Assembly: GCA_913031285.1 (NCBI GenBank) | Contig: CAJWEI010000003.1 | Span: 18,224 to 82,223 of the forward strand | Direction of reading: 5' to 3' | Source of the DNA: an uncultured Alphaproteobacteria bacterium | Lineage (GTDB): Bacteria; Pseudomonadota; Alphaproteobacteria; Rhodobacterales; Rhodobacteraceae | Length of the DNA stretch: 64,000 bases | In this document: positions 13,989-48,121 of the stretch, in pieces | Position numbering within the stretch: position 1 is the first letter of the stretch | How the letters are laid out: every line of letters starts with the position of its first letter | The notes under the pieces: generated by a model | Database searches by the model: none | Told to the model about the DNA's origin: nothing | Seen by the model: the letters and a program-made list of their open reading frames with translations, nothing else | Position numbers and translations under genes: made by a program

Positions 13989-15131
13989 ATGGAGTTTGAT
14001 GTGATACAATCAATTTCGAGCCGCCTAGATTATCCTTGTTTGAGAACTATAAGCTATCTTAATCAGGCGTCTTTGGGGTTGATGGGTGAGCCGGCTGTAA
14101 CCGCGATGCATCACTTTCTTGATGAAACAGCTCGCCATGGGAATTTGAAAATGTCGGATGCTGAGGAATCTGTATTTTTACAGCCTCTGAGGTCCCGTTT
14201 TGCGCAGCTCATTGGCTCTGAGAAAAACAATGTCGCGATTGTAGCAAGCGCAAGTGAGATTTTGAGCCAGCTACCAGCATTGCTATCTCCTACAGAGGAG
14301 AGCAAGATTATTTTGGTTGCCACTGACTTTCCTGCAATAACGCGTCCTTGGATAGCTTATTGCCAGGCAAACCCATGTAGAATTTGTTTTGTTGAGGAAG
14401 AACCTGATCAAAGTTTAACCGACCAGATAATTCAAAACCTAGACGCACAAACTGTGGCAGTCTGCATAAGCTTCGTTCAGTTTGCTTCTGGAAGACGGCT
14501 CAATATTTCTCGCTTGCGCGCTGCATCTCAAGCAGTTGGGGCAAAATTGGTGGTTGACGTGACGCAGGCGGCTGGGGCTGTCCCGGTAAGCGTGCAAGAG
14601 TGGGATGCAGATGTTGTAGTTTGCAGTGGATACAAATGGCTTGGTGGGCATGGTGGTATAGCGTTTGCGCGTTTCTCAGATGCGCTATTGGAAAAACAAC
14701 CGCCATTCATTGGCTGGTTTGGAGGGGACGATCCCTTTAACATGGATGCAAAACAGTTGTTACTGTCCAAAACAGCTGCCAGATATACTCAGGCCACCCT
14801 GTCTTATATTTCAGTTGTCGGTTTAAATGCAGCATTGGACGAATTACTGAAAACTAGTGTAGAGCGGATACATAATCACTCCAGTCAACTTGCAGAGGTT
14901 TTATTAACGGGTCTTACCAATCTTGAATGGGAAGCTTTTATCGAGGCGGATGCAGATGAATTTTCGCCGCACATTATAACTCTGCAAACCGCACGCCATA
15001 ATGTGCAGTCGGCCTTACAAAAATTGGAGAAAAATGGTGTAATTTGTGGAAATCGAAATGGACGTATCCGCGTCTCACTCGCGCATTATAACAATGAAGA
15101 CGATATTCAGTCCCTATTAAAAGTACTCTGA
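13989..15131 (+). CDS. Class V aminotransferase-fold PLP enzyme
   Basis: A 380-residue PLP-dependent enzyme of fold type I, class V (cysteine desulfurase / kynureninase / isopenicillin N epimerase-like). The Asp that contacts the cofactor is in VVDVTQAAGAVPV (near 190). The Schiff-base Lys is in VVCSGYKWLGGHGG (near 217). The N-terminus YLNQASLGLMG is the usual class V start. The reaction (transamination, lyase or epimerase) cannot be settled. It follows the amidase gene by 122 bases and may belong to the same amide or amino-acid catabolic unit. Confidence 0.83.
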   Translation: MEFDVIQSISSRLDYPCLRTISYLNQASLGLMGEPAVTAMHHFLDETARHGNLKMSDAEESVFLQPLRSRFAQLIGSEKNNVAIVASASEILSQLPALLSPTEESKIILVATDFPAITRPWIAYCQANPCRICFVEEEPDQSLTDQIIQNLDAQTVAVCISFVQFASGRRLNISRLRAASQAVGAKLVVDVTQAAGAVPVSVQEWDADVVVCSGYKWLGGHGGIAFARFSDALLEKQPPFIGWFGGDDPFNMDAKQLLLSKTAARYTQATLSYISVVGLNAALDELLKTSVERIHNHSSQLAEVLLTGLTNLEWEAFIEADADEFSPHIITLQTARHNVQSALQKLEKNGVICGNRNGRIRVSLAHYNNEDDIQSLLKVL

Positions 15132-30518: not shown

Positions 30519-30931
30519 TCATGGTTCAATTGTGATTTAGCTTAGTAAAAGAAAACTTGATTTTACCTAGAATTACGCATCGCCTCTTATACGCAAATCA
30601 GCTTTTGACGCAAGAGCACGAATATGAAAGTTATCCCCAAAGTGCTTTATTTAAATAAATAATGTTGGAGCATGCTCTCCCGATAAAGCGGCAGTTTTGG
30701 CTCTGGCATTGCCACTGCAAACCACAGACCAAAAGTTCGAATCGTCTACTGAAGCTTACCGCGTCGTCAAATTTTATACTTTGTGGCGTAAGCTGGGGCC
30801 TTACTTTAAGTGCCCCAATCAGAAACATTTGGAGGAACCCGTTCAAGTGCTTTACTTCAAGGCGATTTGAGTTGTTTAAGTTTAAAGAGACGTTTCATCT
30901 ACGGCTTTGTAAAATAAACCGCTTGCGCAAC
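30519..30931. other. Gene-free stretch with a protein-like fragment
   Basis: About 410 bases. A forward frame at about 30661-30870 reads protein-like (LALALPLQTTDQKFESS, then YTLWRKLGPYFKCPNQ). It has no start codon after the preceding stop and no ribosome site. It may be a gene fragment; I do not recognise it. Confidence 0.3.
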
Positions 30932-31598
30932 TCAACTGTACATCCTTGAGCGGTTTTCAATAACAGAATTTTCTGGCTGGGGTGAAGAAAATTCCACGTA
31001 ATTAAGCGGCATTTTGCCAAAGCTCCCAACACCTTCGATTATTAGCAAAAAATCAGTCAGATATTTTGCGTTTACATCTTGCACAAAGTCGTCTGTTAAC
31101 AGCCAGTATTTATTGCTTTTTATGCTGTTCTTTAAAAGTCGATAAACCAATATAACGTCTTCACCGGCAATTTCTTCAAATTGACGGATTTTTTTGATCT
31201 CAAACTCGCCTTTGTGCGCGACAATCTTTAATCTTAAATTCTCTGATTGAAAGCATGGATCGCATCCGCATGCTTGCACAAACATAAGCTCGGAGGTTTT
31301 TTTTGAAGGCTTGGTTTGCAAGCTCCATGGCACCAATAATATCGTTTGCTTTAGATCCCTTACCGTCATCCTGACAAAAGAAAAATGCAGCATCCCCTTC
31401 AAGTTTATTCAGGTTCATGACGGGCTCTATTTTTTCGATCACTGCTTCGAGTAAATCAGAAATTATTGTCTCGGCATGGGCTTCAAACATATCGGCCATT
31501 TTGCCGCCAACGACTGGCTTCTTTCGAAGTTTGTGTAATTTAATAAAATCTGTTTATCCACTAATGTCGGTGATCAGCAGGTAACCTCCATAAGACAT
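30932..31598 (-). pseudogene. Broken DUF2652 (adenylate cyclase-like) gene
   Basis: Reading through two lesions restores one 221-residue protein. From the ATG at 31598 it starts MSYGGYLLITDISG, then an in-frame TAA at 31554-31556 replaces the expected Tyr of the family's ISGYT motif. The frame continues TDFIKLHK and SDLLEAVIEKIEP, then shifts at a run of eight T (31297-31304; eight A on the coding strand). Seven would keep the frame. The second part includes CGCDPCFQSENLRLKIVAHKG and runs to the stop at 30932. DUF2652 proteins relate to class III nucleotidyl cyclases; their role is poorly known. Either lesion alone would kill the product. The homopolymer shift could be a sequencing error; the stop codon is less likely to be. 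Confidence 0.85.
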
Positions 31599-42072: not shown

Positions 42073-42582
42073 CTAGCTTTCTGACAAGGCTACCTTCATA
42101 TCTTTGACTTGATAAATCACTTCACCATCGGCTTCAACCCAACCGTCAGCCACACCCATAGTCAAACGACGTGTTTGCAGGGCCTTTGTGAAGTGTATGT
42201 GATATTTCAGCATTTCCCTGTCAGGCCGAACCATACCGGTCAACTTTACTTCACCGACGCCAAGTGCGTAACCGCGCCCTTGCCATCCCCGCCATCCCAA
42301 ATTGAAACCGGTGAGTTGCCAAAGGCCATCTAGGCCTAGGCAACCTGGCATAATTGGATTATTTGGAAAATGGCAATCAAAAAACCAAAGATCTGGTGAA
42401 ATATTGAATTCTGCAATTATATGCCCTTTGCTATGTTCACCGCCGTCTGAACTCACTTCAGTGACGCGGTCTACCATAAGCATTGGTGGTTCTGGCAATT
42501 GGGCATTCCCAGGGCCGAACAACTCGCCGCGTGCACATTTTAAAAGTTCGTCTTTGTCAAAACTGCTCGGGAAACTGATCAT
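42073..42582 (-). CDS. fabA: 3-hydroxydecanoyl-ACP dehydratase/isomerase
   Basis: A 169-residue hot-dog-fold enzyme that introduces the cis double bond. The active-site His is in [14 protein letters not shown] (near 71) and the Asp in LGLDGLWQL (near 85). [20 protein letters not shown] near residue 20 is the standard FabA start. It heads the fabA-fabB-fabI operon and is divergent from irr. The 188-base intergenic region carries a palindrome. Confidence 0.96.
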
Positions 42583-42770: not shown

Positions 42771-43190
42771 GTGACTTCAGTGACATCAAAACGCGCAAAC
42801 CAGTGGCTGGCCTCTGCCGATCTGAGACCAACGCGTCAGCGAGTGGCTCTTGCAGAGGTCCTTATAGGCGATGGTAAACACCGCCACGTGACTGCTGAAA
42901 CTCTTTTTGAGCAGGTTAAACTGGGCGGTGAGAAAGTATCTTTAGCAACTGTTTACAATACTTTGCGCGCTTTTTGTGATGCTGGCCTGACTCAGGAAGT
43001 CACTGTCGACGGTTCGAAAAGTTATTTTGACACCAACACGTATGATCACCCTCATTTTTATTGGGACGATACGCAAACGCTAACTGATGCGCCGGCAGAC
43101 CAGATGAAAATTACTCAATTACCGGATGCTCCAGAGGGTATGGAAATTGGGTCTGTCGACGTTGTTATACGTCTTCGCAAGAAGAATTAG
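42771..43190 (+). CDS. irr: Fur-family iron response regulator Irr
   Basis: A 139-residue Fur-superfamily protein. The winged helix runs from DLRPTRQRVALAEVL (near 18) to SLATVYNTLRAFCDAGL (near 62). A HRH cluster (GDGKHRHVTAETLF, near 36) and YDHPHFYWDD (near 88) supply candidate metal or haem ligands; the C-terminal Cys-rich zinc motif of Fur is absent, as in Irr. Location beside fabABI is the typical irr context. Irr represses or activates iron and haem genes when iron is low. The GTG at 42771 lies close to GAGGAG; a second GTG at 42780 is also possible. Confidence 0.88.
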   Translation: MTSVTSKRANQWLASADLRPTRQRVALAEVLIGDGKHRHVTAETLFEQVKLGGEKVSLATVYNTLRAFCDAGLTQEVTVDGSKSYFDTNTYDHPHFYWDDTQTLTDAPADQMKITQLPDAPEGMEIGSVDVVIRLRKKN

Positions 43191-43196
43191 TGTTTC

Positions 43197-44180
43197 TTGC
43201 GTGCGATTGGTTATGATAAATTCGGAACTGCAGTTCAGGTTTTGAAGATAACGGAGTTGCCGAGCCCAACGCCAGGGGACGGCGAACTTATTGTCAAACT
43301 TGCCTATTCTGGCGTGAATCCCTCTGATGTTAAATCACGTGTTGGTAGTAGACCCGGTATCACTAAACCTGCTTTTGACTTTATTGTACCTCATTCTGAT
43401 GGCTCTGGTATAGTGACTGAGGTTGGCGCTGGGGTTGACCCTGCGAGGGTAGGACAAAGGGTTTGGATTTGGAATGGACAATGGGGCCGAGCATTAGGTA
43501 CAATGGCGGAGTATATTACTATTCCAGATGCTCAGGCAGTTGAATTACCAGACAAGATTAGTCTAGAAGCAGGAGCGACTTTTGGGATCCCGGGGCTAAC
43601 AGCAGCGCAATGCGTTTTGGGCGGAGATGACATAAAAGACAAAACAGTCTTGGTTTCAGGCGGAGCAGGTGCAGTGGGACATTTTGCGGTTCAAATTGCA
43701 AAATGGGCTGGTGCTGAGGTGATCGCGACTGCATCGCCAAAAAACTGGGATCATGTGCGAGCCGCAGGGGCAGATCATGTGCTTGATTACAATTCACCTG
43801 AGCTTAGTGAACAAATTAAGGCTCTCTGTCCAAATGGGGTAGATCGATCGGTAGAGCTAGAATTTGGTTCTAATATATCGCTTCTAGCAAAAATTATGCG
43901 CCCGTTAGGAACTATTGCTGCCTACGGCTCAGCAATAGACTTAAACCCAAAAATTCCTTTTGGGCCTCTCTTATTTAAAGCGCTTAAGGTTGATATCACA
44001 CTCATCTATATTTTAGATGAATTAGCGCGAAAAAACGCTATAAATAGCTTGCACCAAGCGTTTGCAGACAATGCTCTAGTACCATCAATAGATGAGATTT
44101 ATGACTTTGAAGCCTGTGTCCAAGCACACGAGAAAGTTGAGCAATCTGGACGCCGTGGGGCAAGCCTAATTAGGTTGTAG
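43197..44180 (+). CDS. NADPH:quinone reductase-type MDR dehydrogenase
   Basis: A 327-residue zinc-free medium-chain reductase. The GroES-like domain has LAYSGVNPSDVKSRVG (near 37), and the nucleotide loop is VSGGAGAVGHFAVQIAKWAGAE (near 155), listed here by its ends. SVELEFGSNI lies near 218. It starts at TTG six bases after the irr stop, so it is probably coupled to irr. Members reduce quinones or reactive enones. The pairing with irr may reflect redox or iron stress, but this is inference. Confidence 0.87.
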   Translation: MRAIGYDKFGTAVQVLKITELPSPTPGDGELIVKLAYSGVNPSDVKSRVGSRPGITKPAFDFIVPHSDGSGIVTEVGAGVDPARVGQRVWIWNGQWGRALGTMAEYITIPDAQAVELPDKISLEAGATFGIPGLTAAQCVLGGDDIKDKTVLVSGGAGAVGHFAVQIAKWAGAEVIATASPKNWDHVRAAGADHVLDYNSPELSEQIKALCPNGVDRSVELEFGSNISLLAKIMRPLGTIAAYGSAIDLNPKIPFGPLLFKALKVDITLIYILDELARKNAINSLHQAFADNALVPSIDEIYDFEACVQAHEKVEQSGRRGASLIRL

Positions 44181-44408: not shown

Positions 44409-45152
44409 TTACAATGGCGCGTCAGGCTTATCTAAAACAAATGTATGGATCGTAAAAACCACTGCATCGCTTTTCGGCAGGCGCATTAATGTTTGTTTTT
44501 CGCATCTTATATACTTACCTTCATTCCGCCTCAATATCTTGCGCGGATTTAAAAACGTGCGCGGCTGGTGTAAGTCGGGAGCCTGATAATAGAGTTTATT
44601 GAACCGCCAAAGTGGGCGTTCCACTTTGATCCCATCAAAAAGACGCTGGACGCGACGTGTGATATTCTCATCATATTCGGCAACAGGTTTGTGGATCACC
44701 GTCAGTGGGTGCATGAATTTTTCGGACAATGACCAACTGGCCGGAAAGCATAAAACTGCGCCGGTTAAAATATGCTCATCACCACGTTTTTGCATGATGC
44801 AAAAATCGTTCTGAACTAGACGTCCCAGCGTAGCCATCGGGTCTGATAGATCTATTTTGACAGATCTTCCATCCGGGCAACGGACTTTTTCTGCATTCTG
44901 CTCAAAATCACGAAGGTGTGGTAGGAATTCCAGTGTTTTTTTGAGTAGCTCTAACGCAGCATTAACTGCCATATTATCTAGTGCGATAACTGCATTGCGA
45001 TTATCGGTTATCAGCCGCTCTCGCTCTTCCATTTGTCCAGCGTAAGCCTCATCCATGATCAGCCATTCTCGTGGATCCAGAGGGGAAATCCCAGGCAATA
45101 GTGTGTCCCTCTTTGTTTCAAAGGGGAGCTCTCTTTGAAAAACCGCTTTCAT
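44409..45152 (-). CDS. DUF3445 protein (haem-dependent oxidative N-demethylase-like)
   Basis: A 247-residue protein of the DUF3445 family. Landmarks are PGISPLDPREWLIMDEAY (near 25), VQNDFCIMQKRGDEHILTGAVLCFPASW (near 112-139, given by ends) and the late RCEKQTLMRLPKSDAVVFTIHT. DUF3445 includes the alpha subunit of a haem-dependent dimethylamine-type N-demethylase. Stand-alone relatives such as this one are not well characterised. No demethylase partner subunits are adjacent. It is divergent from the decayed dddP gene. Confidence 0.8.
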   Translation of the reverse strand: MKAVFQRELPFETKRDTLLPGISPLDPREWLIMDEAYAGQMEERERLITDNRNAVIALDNMAVNAALELLKKTLEFLPHLRDFEQNAEKVRCPDGRSVKIDLSDPMATLGRLVQNDFCIMQKRGDEHILTGAVLCFPASWSLSEKFMHPLTVIHKPVAEYDENITRRVQRLFDGIKVERPLWRFNKLYYQAPDLHQPRTFLNPRKILRRNEGKYIRCEKQTLMRLPKSDAVVFTIHTFVLDKPDAPL

Positions 45153-45255
45153 TAGAATGTAGAGTTACAGAAAACGGCAGAATTGCAAGTAGGTAACGGG
45201 CTCCACGCTTCTAAGTATTCTTGTTTGGTGTTGTGGAAATTGGGGAGAAGGTTCT

Positions 45256-46302
45256 GTGGTAATAAACTATAAAGACCCACGAAAAATTGACCCTACTGTG
45301 GTGGATAGAACCCGAGATAGTACATTCAACGATCAAAACCGTGTTGAAATTGGGTCGACGCGTTTAGCCTTCGATGAATGGCAGGCTTAGGACTTTACCC
45401 TTCCAGATTTACAAATGATGCGCCGCTTTCGTTGGGAGCTGTTGACCCAGCATATAGTTGACCGTGATTATGGCGGTCTTTTGATTTTTGACCCTCTCAA
45501 AATATGCTAGGCGATAGACAGTACGAATATGCAGCTGTGGAATACACACGACCCGTTTCGGGCAGTGCTTTTACGTCCCGACGGCCATATGGTCATGTGG
45601 GACAACAAGAATTCTCCTTTTCTGTCCAAGTTTAATCCACTGGTCAGAGAACAAAGATCAGGTACAGACTTTTTCTACTTTGATCGTGGTAATAAAGTGG
45701 ATATGGCAGCGCAAGTTTTTGCAAATCAACTGAGCGGTTGGTCGAAGAACACGGAGATGATAATAAGTTCCTTGCAGTTGATAAGATCATTTTGCACGCA
45801 TTATGGGTTCTTGAAGGTCAAAACTCTGAAATTATGGAAGGTGAGGAGGTTATAGAAAAGTCTCGCTCGATCAAAGGGTCTGATGAAATTCTTGTTTCTG
45901 GCACAGATCTAGTGGGATTTTACGATATTTTTGTAGATATTAGTTGAACATTGTCGGTGGGGAATAAAAAGCCGCAACTGGACATGGTATGTGCCAAGCA
46001 ACATATCTACAAAGATATCATAACGAACATGGAAATGCTAAAGTCAGGTGTTCATATAAGCGATCTTTCGCGCAACACGAACGTGCTAGATGATCAATAT
46101 CAAAAAGGTTGAGTGGGGTTATGATTAAATGCTTGAGGCAGCAATGGTGCTCTGTGTTGAGGCACTCATAAATCCAGAGGTAAGCGATTTCTCCATCAAA
46201 CTGGAAGATCAGATTGATATAACGCCTACTGGATACGAAAATTTCAGCAAATATCCCTTTGATGATAGGTTGATGAGCCTGACCTATAAGCTCTGTCGTT
46301 GA
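45256..46302 (+). pseudogene. dddP: Decayed DMSP lyase gene (DddP, M24 peptidase fold)
   Basis: Three reading frames joined together recover an almost full-length DddP. From GTG 45256 the frame reads RKIDPTV, an in-frame TAG (45388-45390), LPDLQMMRRFRW, DRDYGGLLIFDPL, a second TAG (45508-45510), then STNMQLWNTHDPFRAVLL. The frame shifts near 45735-45738. It continues LAVDKIILHALWVLEGQ to KGSDEI, then jumps to TDLVGFYDIFVDIS and a TGA (45945-45947). Next come QLDMVCAKQH, TNMEMLKSGV, NVLDDQYQK and another stop. The last piece (46129-46302) is AAMVLCVEALIN and DFSIKLEDQIDIT. By memory of the family, roughly 75-80 and about 30 residues are deleted at the two junctions; the second would remove a metal-binding His. 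DddP cleaves DMSP to DMS and acrylate; this copy cannot. Confidence 0.87.
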
Positions 46303-46819
46303 AAGAATAGATCGTATCTGACGCCGCCCACTACTGGATTTTAGAAAGTTAAACTCACTGAAAGAGCTTTGGTCAAAGGTCATGATGAAATAGTTTTCCA
46401 TTCCATGTCAGTGACTTTCTTTATCTGCAGATACTGGTTCGAGATTGAACCAGCCATTATTGGCACCATCTACTGTAAAAGATTAAAAGATGATTTCTTA
46501 ACGATTTTACCTTTTTTGTTTGACCACTAATGGCAGTGTTAGTTTGTAATCTTATTCTCGTCTGATCTCTTGTCGTTCTATCCCACCACATCATGGCATT
46601 ACCGTAAGAGTGATGTCTCTCAAAAAAATGACCGCTATTTCGCTATCTAATTTTTATTTTTGATCAACAAGGGCTGGTATGTACCAAAATCCAGAATTTT
46701 CGGAGCATTTTTGGCAAGATTCTAAGTAGTCGGTTTCCTTCCGCACTTCTGGTTGTACCTTTTGCGTGCCGCACCTATAACTGGCTGGATTTCTAATTAA
46801 ATTGAGGTTGGCTTTTTTT
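46303..46819. other. Gene-free stretch before purB
   Basis: About 515 bases. A reverse-strand frame that extends into the dddP remnant has no ribosome site and is its shadow. No terminator or tRNA-like fold was found. It must contain the purB promoter. Confidence 0.5.
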
Positions 46820-48121
46820 ATGCTTCCACGCTACTCCCGTCCTGAGATGGTTAAAATCTGGTCACCTCAAACGAAATTCAGAATCTGGTACGAGATTGAG
46901 GCACATGCTTGCGATGCGATGGCGGCGATAGGTACCATTCCAGAAAAAAATGCAGAGGCCGTTTGGAAAGCAAAGGATGTTGAGTTTGATGTGGCTCGGA
47001 TTAATGAGATTGAGGCTGTCACTAAGCATGACGTTATTGCTTTTCTGACTCACCTTGCGGAAATTGTTGGATCAGACGAGGCACGATTTGTTCATCAGGG
47101 GATGACGAGTTCTGACGTGTTGGACACATGTTTTAATGTCCAGCTTGTCAATGCAGCTGATATTTTGATCACTGATGTTGAGGCGCTACTGGCAGCTTTG
47201 AAAAGACGCGCCTTCGAGCATAAAGATACTGTGCGCATTGGGCGCAGTCATGGTATACACGCTGAACCGACCACCATGGGGCTGACGTTTGCACGTTTTT
47301 ACGCAGAGATGGATCGCAATCGCGACCGACTTATCGTGGCACGGGCAGAAATTTCGACAGGTGCAATTTCTGGTGCAGTGGGAACATACGCTAATATTGA
47401 TCCATATGTTGAAGAATATGTCTGTCAAAAGCTTTGCCTAAAGCCGGAGCCGATCAGTACCCAAGTTATTCCACGGGATCGTCATGCAGCATTTTTTTCA
47501 GTGCTTGGTGTTGTATCCAGCAGCATCGAAAACATAGCCACAGAAATCCGCCATATGCAACGCACAGAGGTACTTGAAGCAGAAGAGTTTTTTTCCAAGG
47601 GCCAAAAAGGCAGTTCGGCAATGCCCCATAAGCGTAACCCTGTTTTAACAGAAAATCTAACTGGATTGGCGCGTCTGGTGCGCGCAGCTGTTATTCCAGC
47701 ACTTGAAAATGTGGCACTGTGGCATGAGCGGGATATCTCGCATAGTTCTGTCGAAAGGAACATCGGTCCAGACACTACAGTCACCTTGGACTTTGCTTTG
47801 TCGCGGTTAACTCAAGTCATTGATAAACTAGTTGTCTACCCGGAAAATATGCTTCAAAATATGAACAAGTTTCGTGGTCTAGTCATGAGCCAAAGGGTCC
47901 TCTTAGCGTTGACGCAGAAGGGTGTCAGCCGCGAAGATTCATATCGCCTCGTTCAAAGAAACGCAATGAAGGTTTGGGAGGAAGACAAAGATTTCCAAAC
48001 TGAGCTTTTAGCTGATAGAGAAGTAATGAAGGCACTTAGCGAAGAGGAAGTACGTGAAAAATTTGATATCGGCTATCATACAAAGCATGTAGATACGATT
48101 TTCAAGCGGGTTTTTAAATAG
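46820..48121 (+). CDS. purB: Adenylosuccinate lyase
   Basis: A 433-residue fumarase/aspartase-superfamily enzyme. It acts twice in purine synthesis, releasing fumarate from SAICAR and from adenylosuccinate. GMTSSDVLDT (near 93), RSHGIHAEPTTMG (near 140) and the signature GSSAMPHKRNP (near 262) carry the catalytic His and Ser residues. The ATG at 46820 gives the usual MxPRYSRPEMV N-terminus; an upstream TTG would add six odd residues. Stand-alone housekeeping gene. Confidence 0.95.
   Translation: MLPRYSRPEMVKIWSPQTKFRIWYEIEAHACDAMAAIGTIPEKNAEAVWKAKDVEFDVARINEIEAVTKHDVIAFLTHLAEIVGSDEARFVHQGMTSSDVLDTCFNVQLVNAADILITDVEALLAALKRRAFEHKDTVRIGRSHGIHAEPTTMGLTFARFYAEMDRNRDRLIVARAEISTGAISGAVGTYANIDPYVEEYVCQKLCLKPEPISTQVIPRDRHAAFFSVLGVVSSSIENIATEIRHMQRTEVLEAEEFFSKGQKGSSAMPHKRNPVLTENLTGLARLVRAAVIPALENVALWHERDISHSSVERNIGPDTTVTLDFALSRLTQVIDKLVVYPENMLQNMNKFRGLVMSQRVLLALTQKGVSREDSYRLVQRNAMKVWEEDKDFQTELLADREVMKALSEEEVREKFDIGYHTKHVDTIFKRVFK

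Follow-up and report, generated by a model that had tools for sequence, protein, structure and literature searches.

DddP, which makes the gas DMS from the algal compound DMSP, is among the DMSP lyases common in the sea, and dddP counts in metagenomes are taken as a sign of DMS production. In RdDddP of Roseobacter denitrificans the metals are held by six residues, and in a relative the exchange of any one of these for alanine left the enzyme inactive; the six ligands are described as invariant across the DddP family, and Tyr366 and Asp377 have been proposed to be catalytic (PMC4108388). For the cupin lyase DddQ a set of active-site residues has been listed (PMC4437653), and acuI is located 3′ of dmdA in most Roseobacters (PMC3338564). 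No report of a dddP pseudogene was found in the accessible parts of the literature searched (PMC8547437, PMC4334477, PMC5896138, PMC7174347, PMC7487153, PMC3338564 and PMC4437653 among them), which included few subscription papers, nor, within the same scope, was a pairing of dddP with a DUF3445 gene; the main text of the estuarine LFER01 paper (PMC11837527), in its accessible part, does not mention dddP.

The window analysed here is a stretch of 64,000 nucleotides from a Rhodobacteraceae genome that appears to belong to the genus LFER01 (G000; 164 contigs, 96.25% complete, a single assembly of the species). Positions 45256 to 46302 hold a dddP which is not translatable as one protein. The original prediction had described a decayed gene there, and both its coordinates and its lesions are reproduced, with two further stops added. 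The features of the locus are as follows, codons being given in the numbering of the intact DddP of the congener G006 where so marked.

42073–42582, minus strand: presumably a fabA-like gene, upstream flank, placed by synteny
42771–43190, plus strand: Fur-family regulator, which we take to be irr, upstream flank, placed by synteny
43197–44180, plus strand: zinc-type alcohol dehydrogenase/quinone oxidoreductase (qor), upstream flank, from Pfam ADH_N and ADH_zinc_N and synteny
44409–45152, minus strand: intact DUF3445 gene (PF11927, HODM alpha subunit-like), divergent neighbour, 164 bits against a cut-off of 25
45256–46302, plus strand: remnant of dddP (DMSP lyase, M24 fold), four pieces of which match NF043017, read against the G006 DddP
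45388–45390, plus strand: in-frame TAG at DddP codon 44 (G006 numbering)
45508–45510, plus strand: in-frame TAG at DddP codon 84 (G006 numbering)
45735–45737, plus strand: one-base deletion (frameshift) at about 45736, near codons 158–160, from tblastn and DNA alignment
45882–45896, plus strand: junction of an in-frame 237-bp deletion (79 codons) at about 45896, from DNA alignment
45945–45947, plus strand: in-frame TGA at DddP codon 309, from tblastn with the congener DddP
46101–46110, plus strand: junction of a frameshifting 74-bp deletion (about 25 codons) at about 46106, from DNA alignment
46126–46128, plus strand: in-frame TAA close to the end of dddP, from tblastn with the congener DddP
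46820–48121, plus strand: purB, downstream flank, with homologues at the same place in relatives

The lesions were mapped by tblastn with the intact G006 DddP, by DNA alignment with G002 and G003, and by three-frame translation of 45197–46400. Seven separate lesions are present, including the deletions of 237 and 74 bp, and the remnant is accordingly spread over frames, with DddP residues 1–158 in one frame, residues 153–212 and 287–366 in the next, and residues 386–443 in the first again; what looks like a TGA at about 46110 is beyond the last junction and is a product of the frame change. In G003 the stretch equal to the 237-bp deletion has a copy of a 10-bp direct repeat at either end, and that equal to the 74-bp deletion is bracketed by two 9-bp copies with two mismatches, which suggests that both larger deletions may have arisen by slippage between such short repeats.

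That the remnant derives from DddP had been claimed in the original prediction and is well borne out. All four pieces submitted match the NCBIfam model NF043017 (E 5e-33, 5e-15, 2e-10 and 4e-17), the sole other match of any piece being a weak one to PRK14576 (E 0.18), so a different M24 peptidase is ruled out and a chance match to DddP is excluded. The longest open piece matches the solved M24-family chains 4s00, 4s01, 4rzy and 4b28 at E 2e-32 to 4e-32. Of these, 4rzy and 4s00 are presumably DddP structures. The 4b28 chain fits the structure paper as a DddP structure too. Residues 1–158 are still 69% identical to the intact G006 protein. As a working enzyme the gene falls short, as stops and frameshifts leave no single open frame above the 600-bit cut-off for a whole DddP, and the best segment, the first, scores 244 bits in a search of the whole genome. 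With the RdDddP residues mapped through the congener numbering (one less, by motif), Asp297, Asp307, Glu406 and Glu421 of the six metal ligands are still present, Asp295 is replaced by Gly, and His371 is taken out by the 74-bp deletion together with Tyr366 and Asp377. Given the loss of these four residues, even a read-through of the stops would likely yield no enzyme.

The place of the remnant is the orthologous, ancestral one. The stretch between DUF3445 and purB, which the original prediction had pointed to for comparison with close relatives, has the order DUF3445-dddP-purB within a longer shared order fabA-irr-qor-DUF3445-dddP-purB-acyltransferase in G001, G002, G004 and G006; the same order runs up to the contig end in purB in G003, and in G005 the last piece of dddP and purB are present. 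Within this genus sample of seven genomes (G000 to G006), dddP is intact, open and of full length in three (G001, G004 and G006), and in G003 it is nearly intact, being open to about residue 430 and then carrying a one-base deletion that gives a TAG. The G005 gene is an open piece of 94 residues at a contig end. In the sister species G002 the gene is nearly full length, but its frame is interrupted by five stops, of three types, and 13 bp are missing near its start. No stop columns are common to the G000 and G002 genes, so the two wrecks look independent, although selection on dddP could have relaxed already before the two split. Completeness is 55–86% in five of the other six genomes of the genus (G002 62%), which makes absences among them soft.

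At the level of the family, 217 of the 394 Rhodobacteraceae genomes searched have a dddP above the cut-off, and among the best-scoring matches listed from these genomes none contains stops. The divergent DUF3445 neighbour, whose product resembles the alpha subunit of a haem-dependent N-demethylase, is common as well. Among 41 genomes, 13 have an over-cut-off dddP, and DUF3445 is the divergent neighbour in 10 of these; in G010 about 2 kb separate it from one of the several dddP copies, and in G007 and G020 the gene was not found. In the best 80 of 447 named dddP loci, DUF3445 is divergent within 1 kb in 52, at about 1.5 kb in 3 and not seen in the examined stretch in 25, Roseovarius nubinhibens included, and purB is present in 47. 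As DUF3445 remains under constraint in genomes with a dead dddP, its function is likely independent of DddP. In G019, a genome with no dddP match, a gene for an alpha/beta hydrolase-OsmC fusion (L201, G019:C1, 6355–7578) lies between purB and DUF3445, where relatives have dddP. DddP at 78–82% identity is also found on contigs from metagenome-assembled genomes labelled Cocleimonas or Granulosicoccus/Granulosicoccaceae (L058, L061, L074, L083, L089, L108, L113 and L123), with no DUF3445 in the examined stretch, either because the gene was transferred to Gammaproteobacteria or because the contigs are mis-binned. Two metagenome-assembled genomes, labelled Roseobacter AQU-03 (L100) and Flavobacteriia AQU-04 (L101), share a contig that is identical in name and length (23042 bases), and at least one of the two labels is likely wrong.

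The pattern of substitution agrees with a loss of constraint on dddP in particular. Between G000 and G002 the protein identity is 66% for dddP, 86% for DUF3445, 87% for qor, 91% for both purB and irr, and 94% for fabA, and between G003 and G006, where the dddP genes are intact or nearly so, dddP is the better conserved at 82% against 61% for DUF3445. The codon model, an own script with F3x4 frequencies and a separate dN/dS for each chosen branch, treated stops as missing data, omitted eight frameshift columns and covered dddP, DUF3445, qor, fabA and irr. From a null dN/dS of 0.069 for dddP, freeing the G000 branch gives 0.39 against 0.05 (2ΔlnL 68.5), freeing G002 gives 0.98 against 0.05 (43.7), and freeing G003 gives 0.25 against 0.06 (7.6); the branch before G000 and G002 gains 7.1. 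With G000 and G002 freed together dN/dS is 0.33–0.47 against 0.03–0.04 elsewhere on both trees tried, and with all three tips freed it is 0.33, 0.33 and 0.17 for G000, G002 and G003 against 0.027 for the rest (147.9). The rise survives removal of the junction columns (387 codons) and an alternative tree of the three species. Among the flanks (DUF3445, qor, fabA and irr) no gain on the G000 branch exceeds 3.1; qor gains 8.5 on the G002 branch, DUF3445, qor and irr gain 4.7–7.4 on the G003 branch, and freeing all three tips gains 6.5–16.8, so a mild rise common to the subclade makes up some of the signal. That in dddP is far beyond it. G000 and G002 are joined with a support of 84 in the flank tree and 98 in the dddP tree, while DUF3445 taken by itself has a better fit to the alternative tree. 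Where an alignment column does not vary among the four dddP genes that are intact or nearly so, it is changed in 58 of 236 cases in G000 and in 40 of 306 in G002, with leave-one-out controls of 33/345 (G003), 13/325, 17/329 and 6/318.

Treating the branch as a mix of constraint near 0.03 and neutrality, the excess dN/dS roughly fits neutrality over about 0.3–0.45 of the G000 branch since its split from G002/G003, a crude figure. The loss thus appears relatively young, and of the original prediction's view that it is recent this relative sense stands and nothing beyond it.

A decay scan of open reading frames of at least 100 residues was run in both directions between the contigs G002:C56 and G000:C3 with a homologue limit of 60%. 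From G002 to G000, 83 frames gave 42 intact, 8 flagged, 31 without a match and 2 below the limit, and from G000 to G002, 61 frames gave 45 intact, 4 flagged, 11 without a match and 1 below the limit. A recheck of the seven flagged queries other than dddP leaves one clearly broken gene besides dddP on each side, and no broad decay of the contig is seen; the flagged fabA and acyltransferase are uninterrupted over 169 and 309 residues in the window and over 188 and 319 in G002, and one flag reflects a match of 64% that covers part of a 670-residue protein near the contig end. Among the clearly broken genes dddP is the only one broken in both genomes. The DUF2652 gene at 30884–31598 of the window is split with stops and open in G002 (242 residues). 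The class V aminotransferase gene is open in the window (13989–15131) and has several stops and a frame change in G002 (C56:13118–14252).

The search for other DMSP genes elsewhere in the genome, to which the original prediction had also pointed, yielded both demethylase-type and lyase-type candidates. From 20 matches to the GcvT family in G000, the DmdA scan took in five intact proteins with a single domain and three fragments of broken proteins, and three of the intact ones pass the NF009133 cut-off of 410 with 558, 554 and, marginally, 420 bits. Each of these has 3tfh, presumably the Pelagibacter DmdA, as its best match among solved structures. Two of the three have orthologues in G002 and G003 at 87–92% identity with a pairwise dN/dS of 0.06–0.10, and DmdA homologues occur also in the congeners with an intact dddP (G001, G004 and G006). 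One dmdA in G000 (C21, L179:1525–3913) and in G003 (L191) is followed by a crotonyl-CoA carboxylase/reductase gene, scoring 546 bits in G000 and 96% identical to it in G003; G006 (C38) has AcuI there. AcuI is above the cut-off in two of the seven genomes (G005 and G006), and since G001 and G004 keep an intact dddP without AcuI, a link between the loss of acuI and that of dddP is ruled out. Two further GcvT-family genes, aminomethyltransferase or demethylase-like, are broken in G000 (C56:11353–12038 and C33:2103–2909). No fused two-domain DddD is present, as none of the eight class III CoA-transferase matches in the genome lies in a frame of more than 460 residues.

The lyase-type candidate is an open cupin of 194 residues (G000:C30:344–928), the one protein of the genome found by PF16867 (82.5 bits against a cut-off of 27). 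Its nearest solved relatives are DddQ, distant at E 3e-14, and none of the NCBIfam models fits it, but by alignment the six DddQ active-site residues are in place as Tyr120, His123, His125, Glu129, Tyr131 and His163, and on these sequence grounds it is predicted to be a DddQ-type DMSP lyase. Orthologues are found in G002 (79%) and G003 (65%) with a pairwise dN/dS of 0.16–0.24; in the other four genus genomes (55–86% complete) only matches of 28–38% were seen. The 120 of 211 relatives listed form a group at 48–96% identity, and P0002, P0032 and P0052 carry the NCBI name dimethylsulfonioproprionate lyase family protein. The surroundings of the gene are glutamine-synthetase-like genes and not known ddd genes.

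Taken together, the locus is best read, with a probability of about 0.65, as the remnant of dddP at its ancestral place, likely freed from selection in the G000 lineage after the split from the sister species because other DMSP routes would cover its job. The routes in question would be the DmdA-type demethylases and the putative DddQ-type cupin, whose retention makes redundancy the most likely reason for the loss, and in G002 the same redundancy would have relaxed selection on DddP a second time, through other lesions. As DmdA homologues are also present in the congeners with an intact dddP, demethylation alone fails to explain the loss, and the cupin, which is predicted to cleave DMSP, is the better candidate cause. 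A counter-point is G003, which has the cupin together with a nearly intact dddP; its dddP branch is also raised (0.17), but some of its flanks are as well. It is conceivable, though doubtful, that this amounts to an enzyme displacement, in which the LFER01 subclade's own cupin lyase, gained or kept, would have made the iron-dependent DddP redundant, with dddP dying in species after species. The separate wrecks of G000 and G002 and a first lesion in G003, beside a cupin, demethylases and a DUF3445 gene that are still under selection, could tentatively be seen in this light.

A different reading, for which the odds are rather poor although it is the strongest rival, is that the trait itself was lost: the subclade would have given up DMSP cleavage altogether, for instance in low-DMSP brackish water, with DMSP only demethylated and the cupin doing something else. 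As the lyase role of the cupin is a prediction, the loss of DMS production could indeed be real, and the death of dddP in both G000 and G002, the distance of the cupin from known DddQ, its glutamine-synthetase-like neighbours, and the report of LFER01 from estuaries where it expresses dmdA (PMC11837527, accessible part) would all be compatible with it. Against this, the cupin keeps the six active-site residues under purifying selection, and some of its close relatives are named as DMSP lyase family proteins by NCBI. The recent loss of the trait claimed in the original prediction is therefore not upheld: the genome keeps three DmdA-type proteins above the cut-off, and its DddQ-type cupin is open and under purifying selection, so that DMSP may still be used and DMS perhaps still released.

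The remaining alternatives fare much worse. An intact dddP that merely looks broken through sequencing or assembly error might be suspected in a single assembly of 164 contigs, and the single lesion of G003 could be of that kind, but in the window it is highly improbable in view of seven lesions, two of them deletions of 237 and 74 bp, and of a rise in dN/dS that extends over about 350 codons beside co-assembled flanks that are open. Equally improbable is a working dddP elsewhere that would make the remnant a redundant copy; a contig may be missing from an assembly 96.25% complete, yet no other match to the DddP model at E 0.001 was found in it, the DNA of the remnant occurs in it once, and the remnant sits at the orthologous place. 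That the open frame 45529–45855 (108 residues) encodes a working small protein is hardly credible, since its first 68–69 residues alone match DddP and the remainder is out of frame, none of the six metal ligands is inside it, and constraint on dddP is relaxed here.

The mechanism is an ordinary one, and the case is a neat natural experiment: a genus with dddP intact, nearly intact or wrecked at one fixed locus allows one to ask which retained enzyme makes DddP dispensable. As residues 1–158 are still so similar to the intact congener, short dddP reads in metagenomes may stem from dead genes.

In comparison with the described systems, the remnant follows DddP (NF043017; RdDddP) in its family match and in a locus shared with its congeners, and differs in being untranslatable, with 79 and about 25 codons gone and Asp295 and His371 lost. 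With the G002 gene it has in common the broken state, the locus and the raised dN/dS, whereas the latter is nearly full length and its five stops and 13-bp deletion sit elsewhere. Next, the demethylation genes depart from the usual DmdA arrangement (NF009133) in that one dmdA precedes a crotonyl-CoA carboxylase/reductase gene instead of acuI. Finally, the cupin corresponds to DddQ and related cupin DMSP lyases (PF16867) in its domain and in the six residues, while it is distant from them in sequence.
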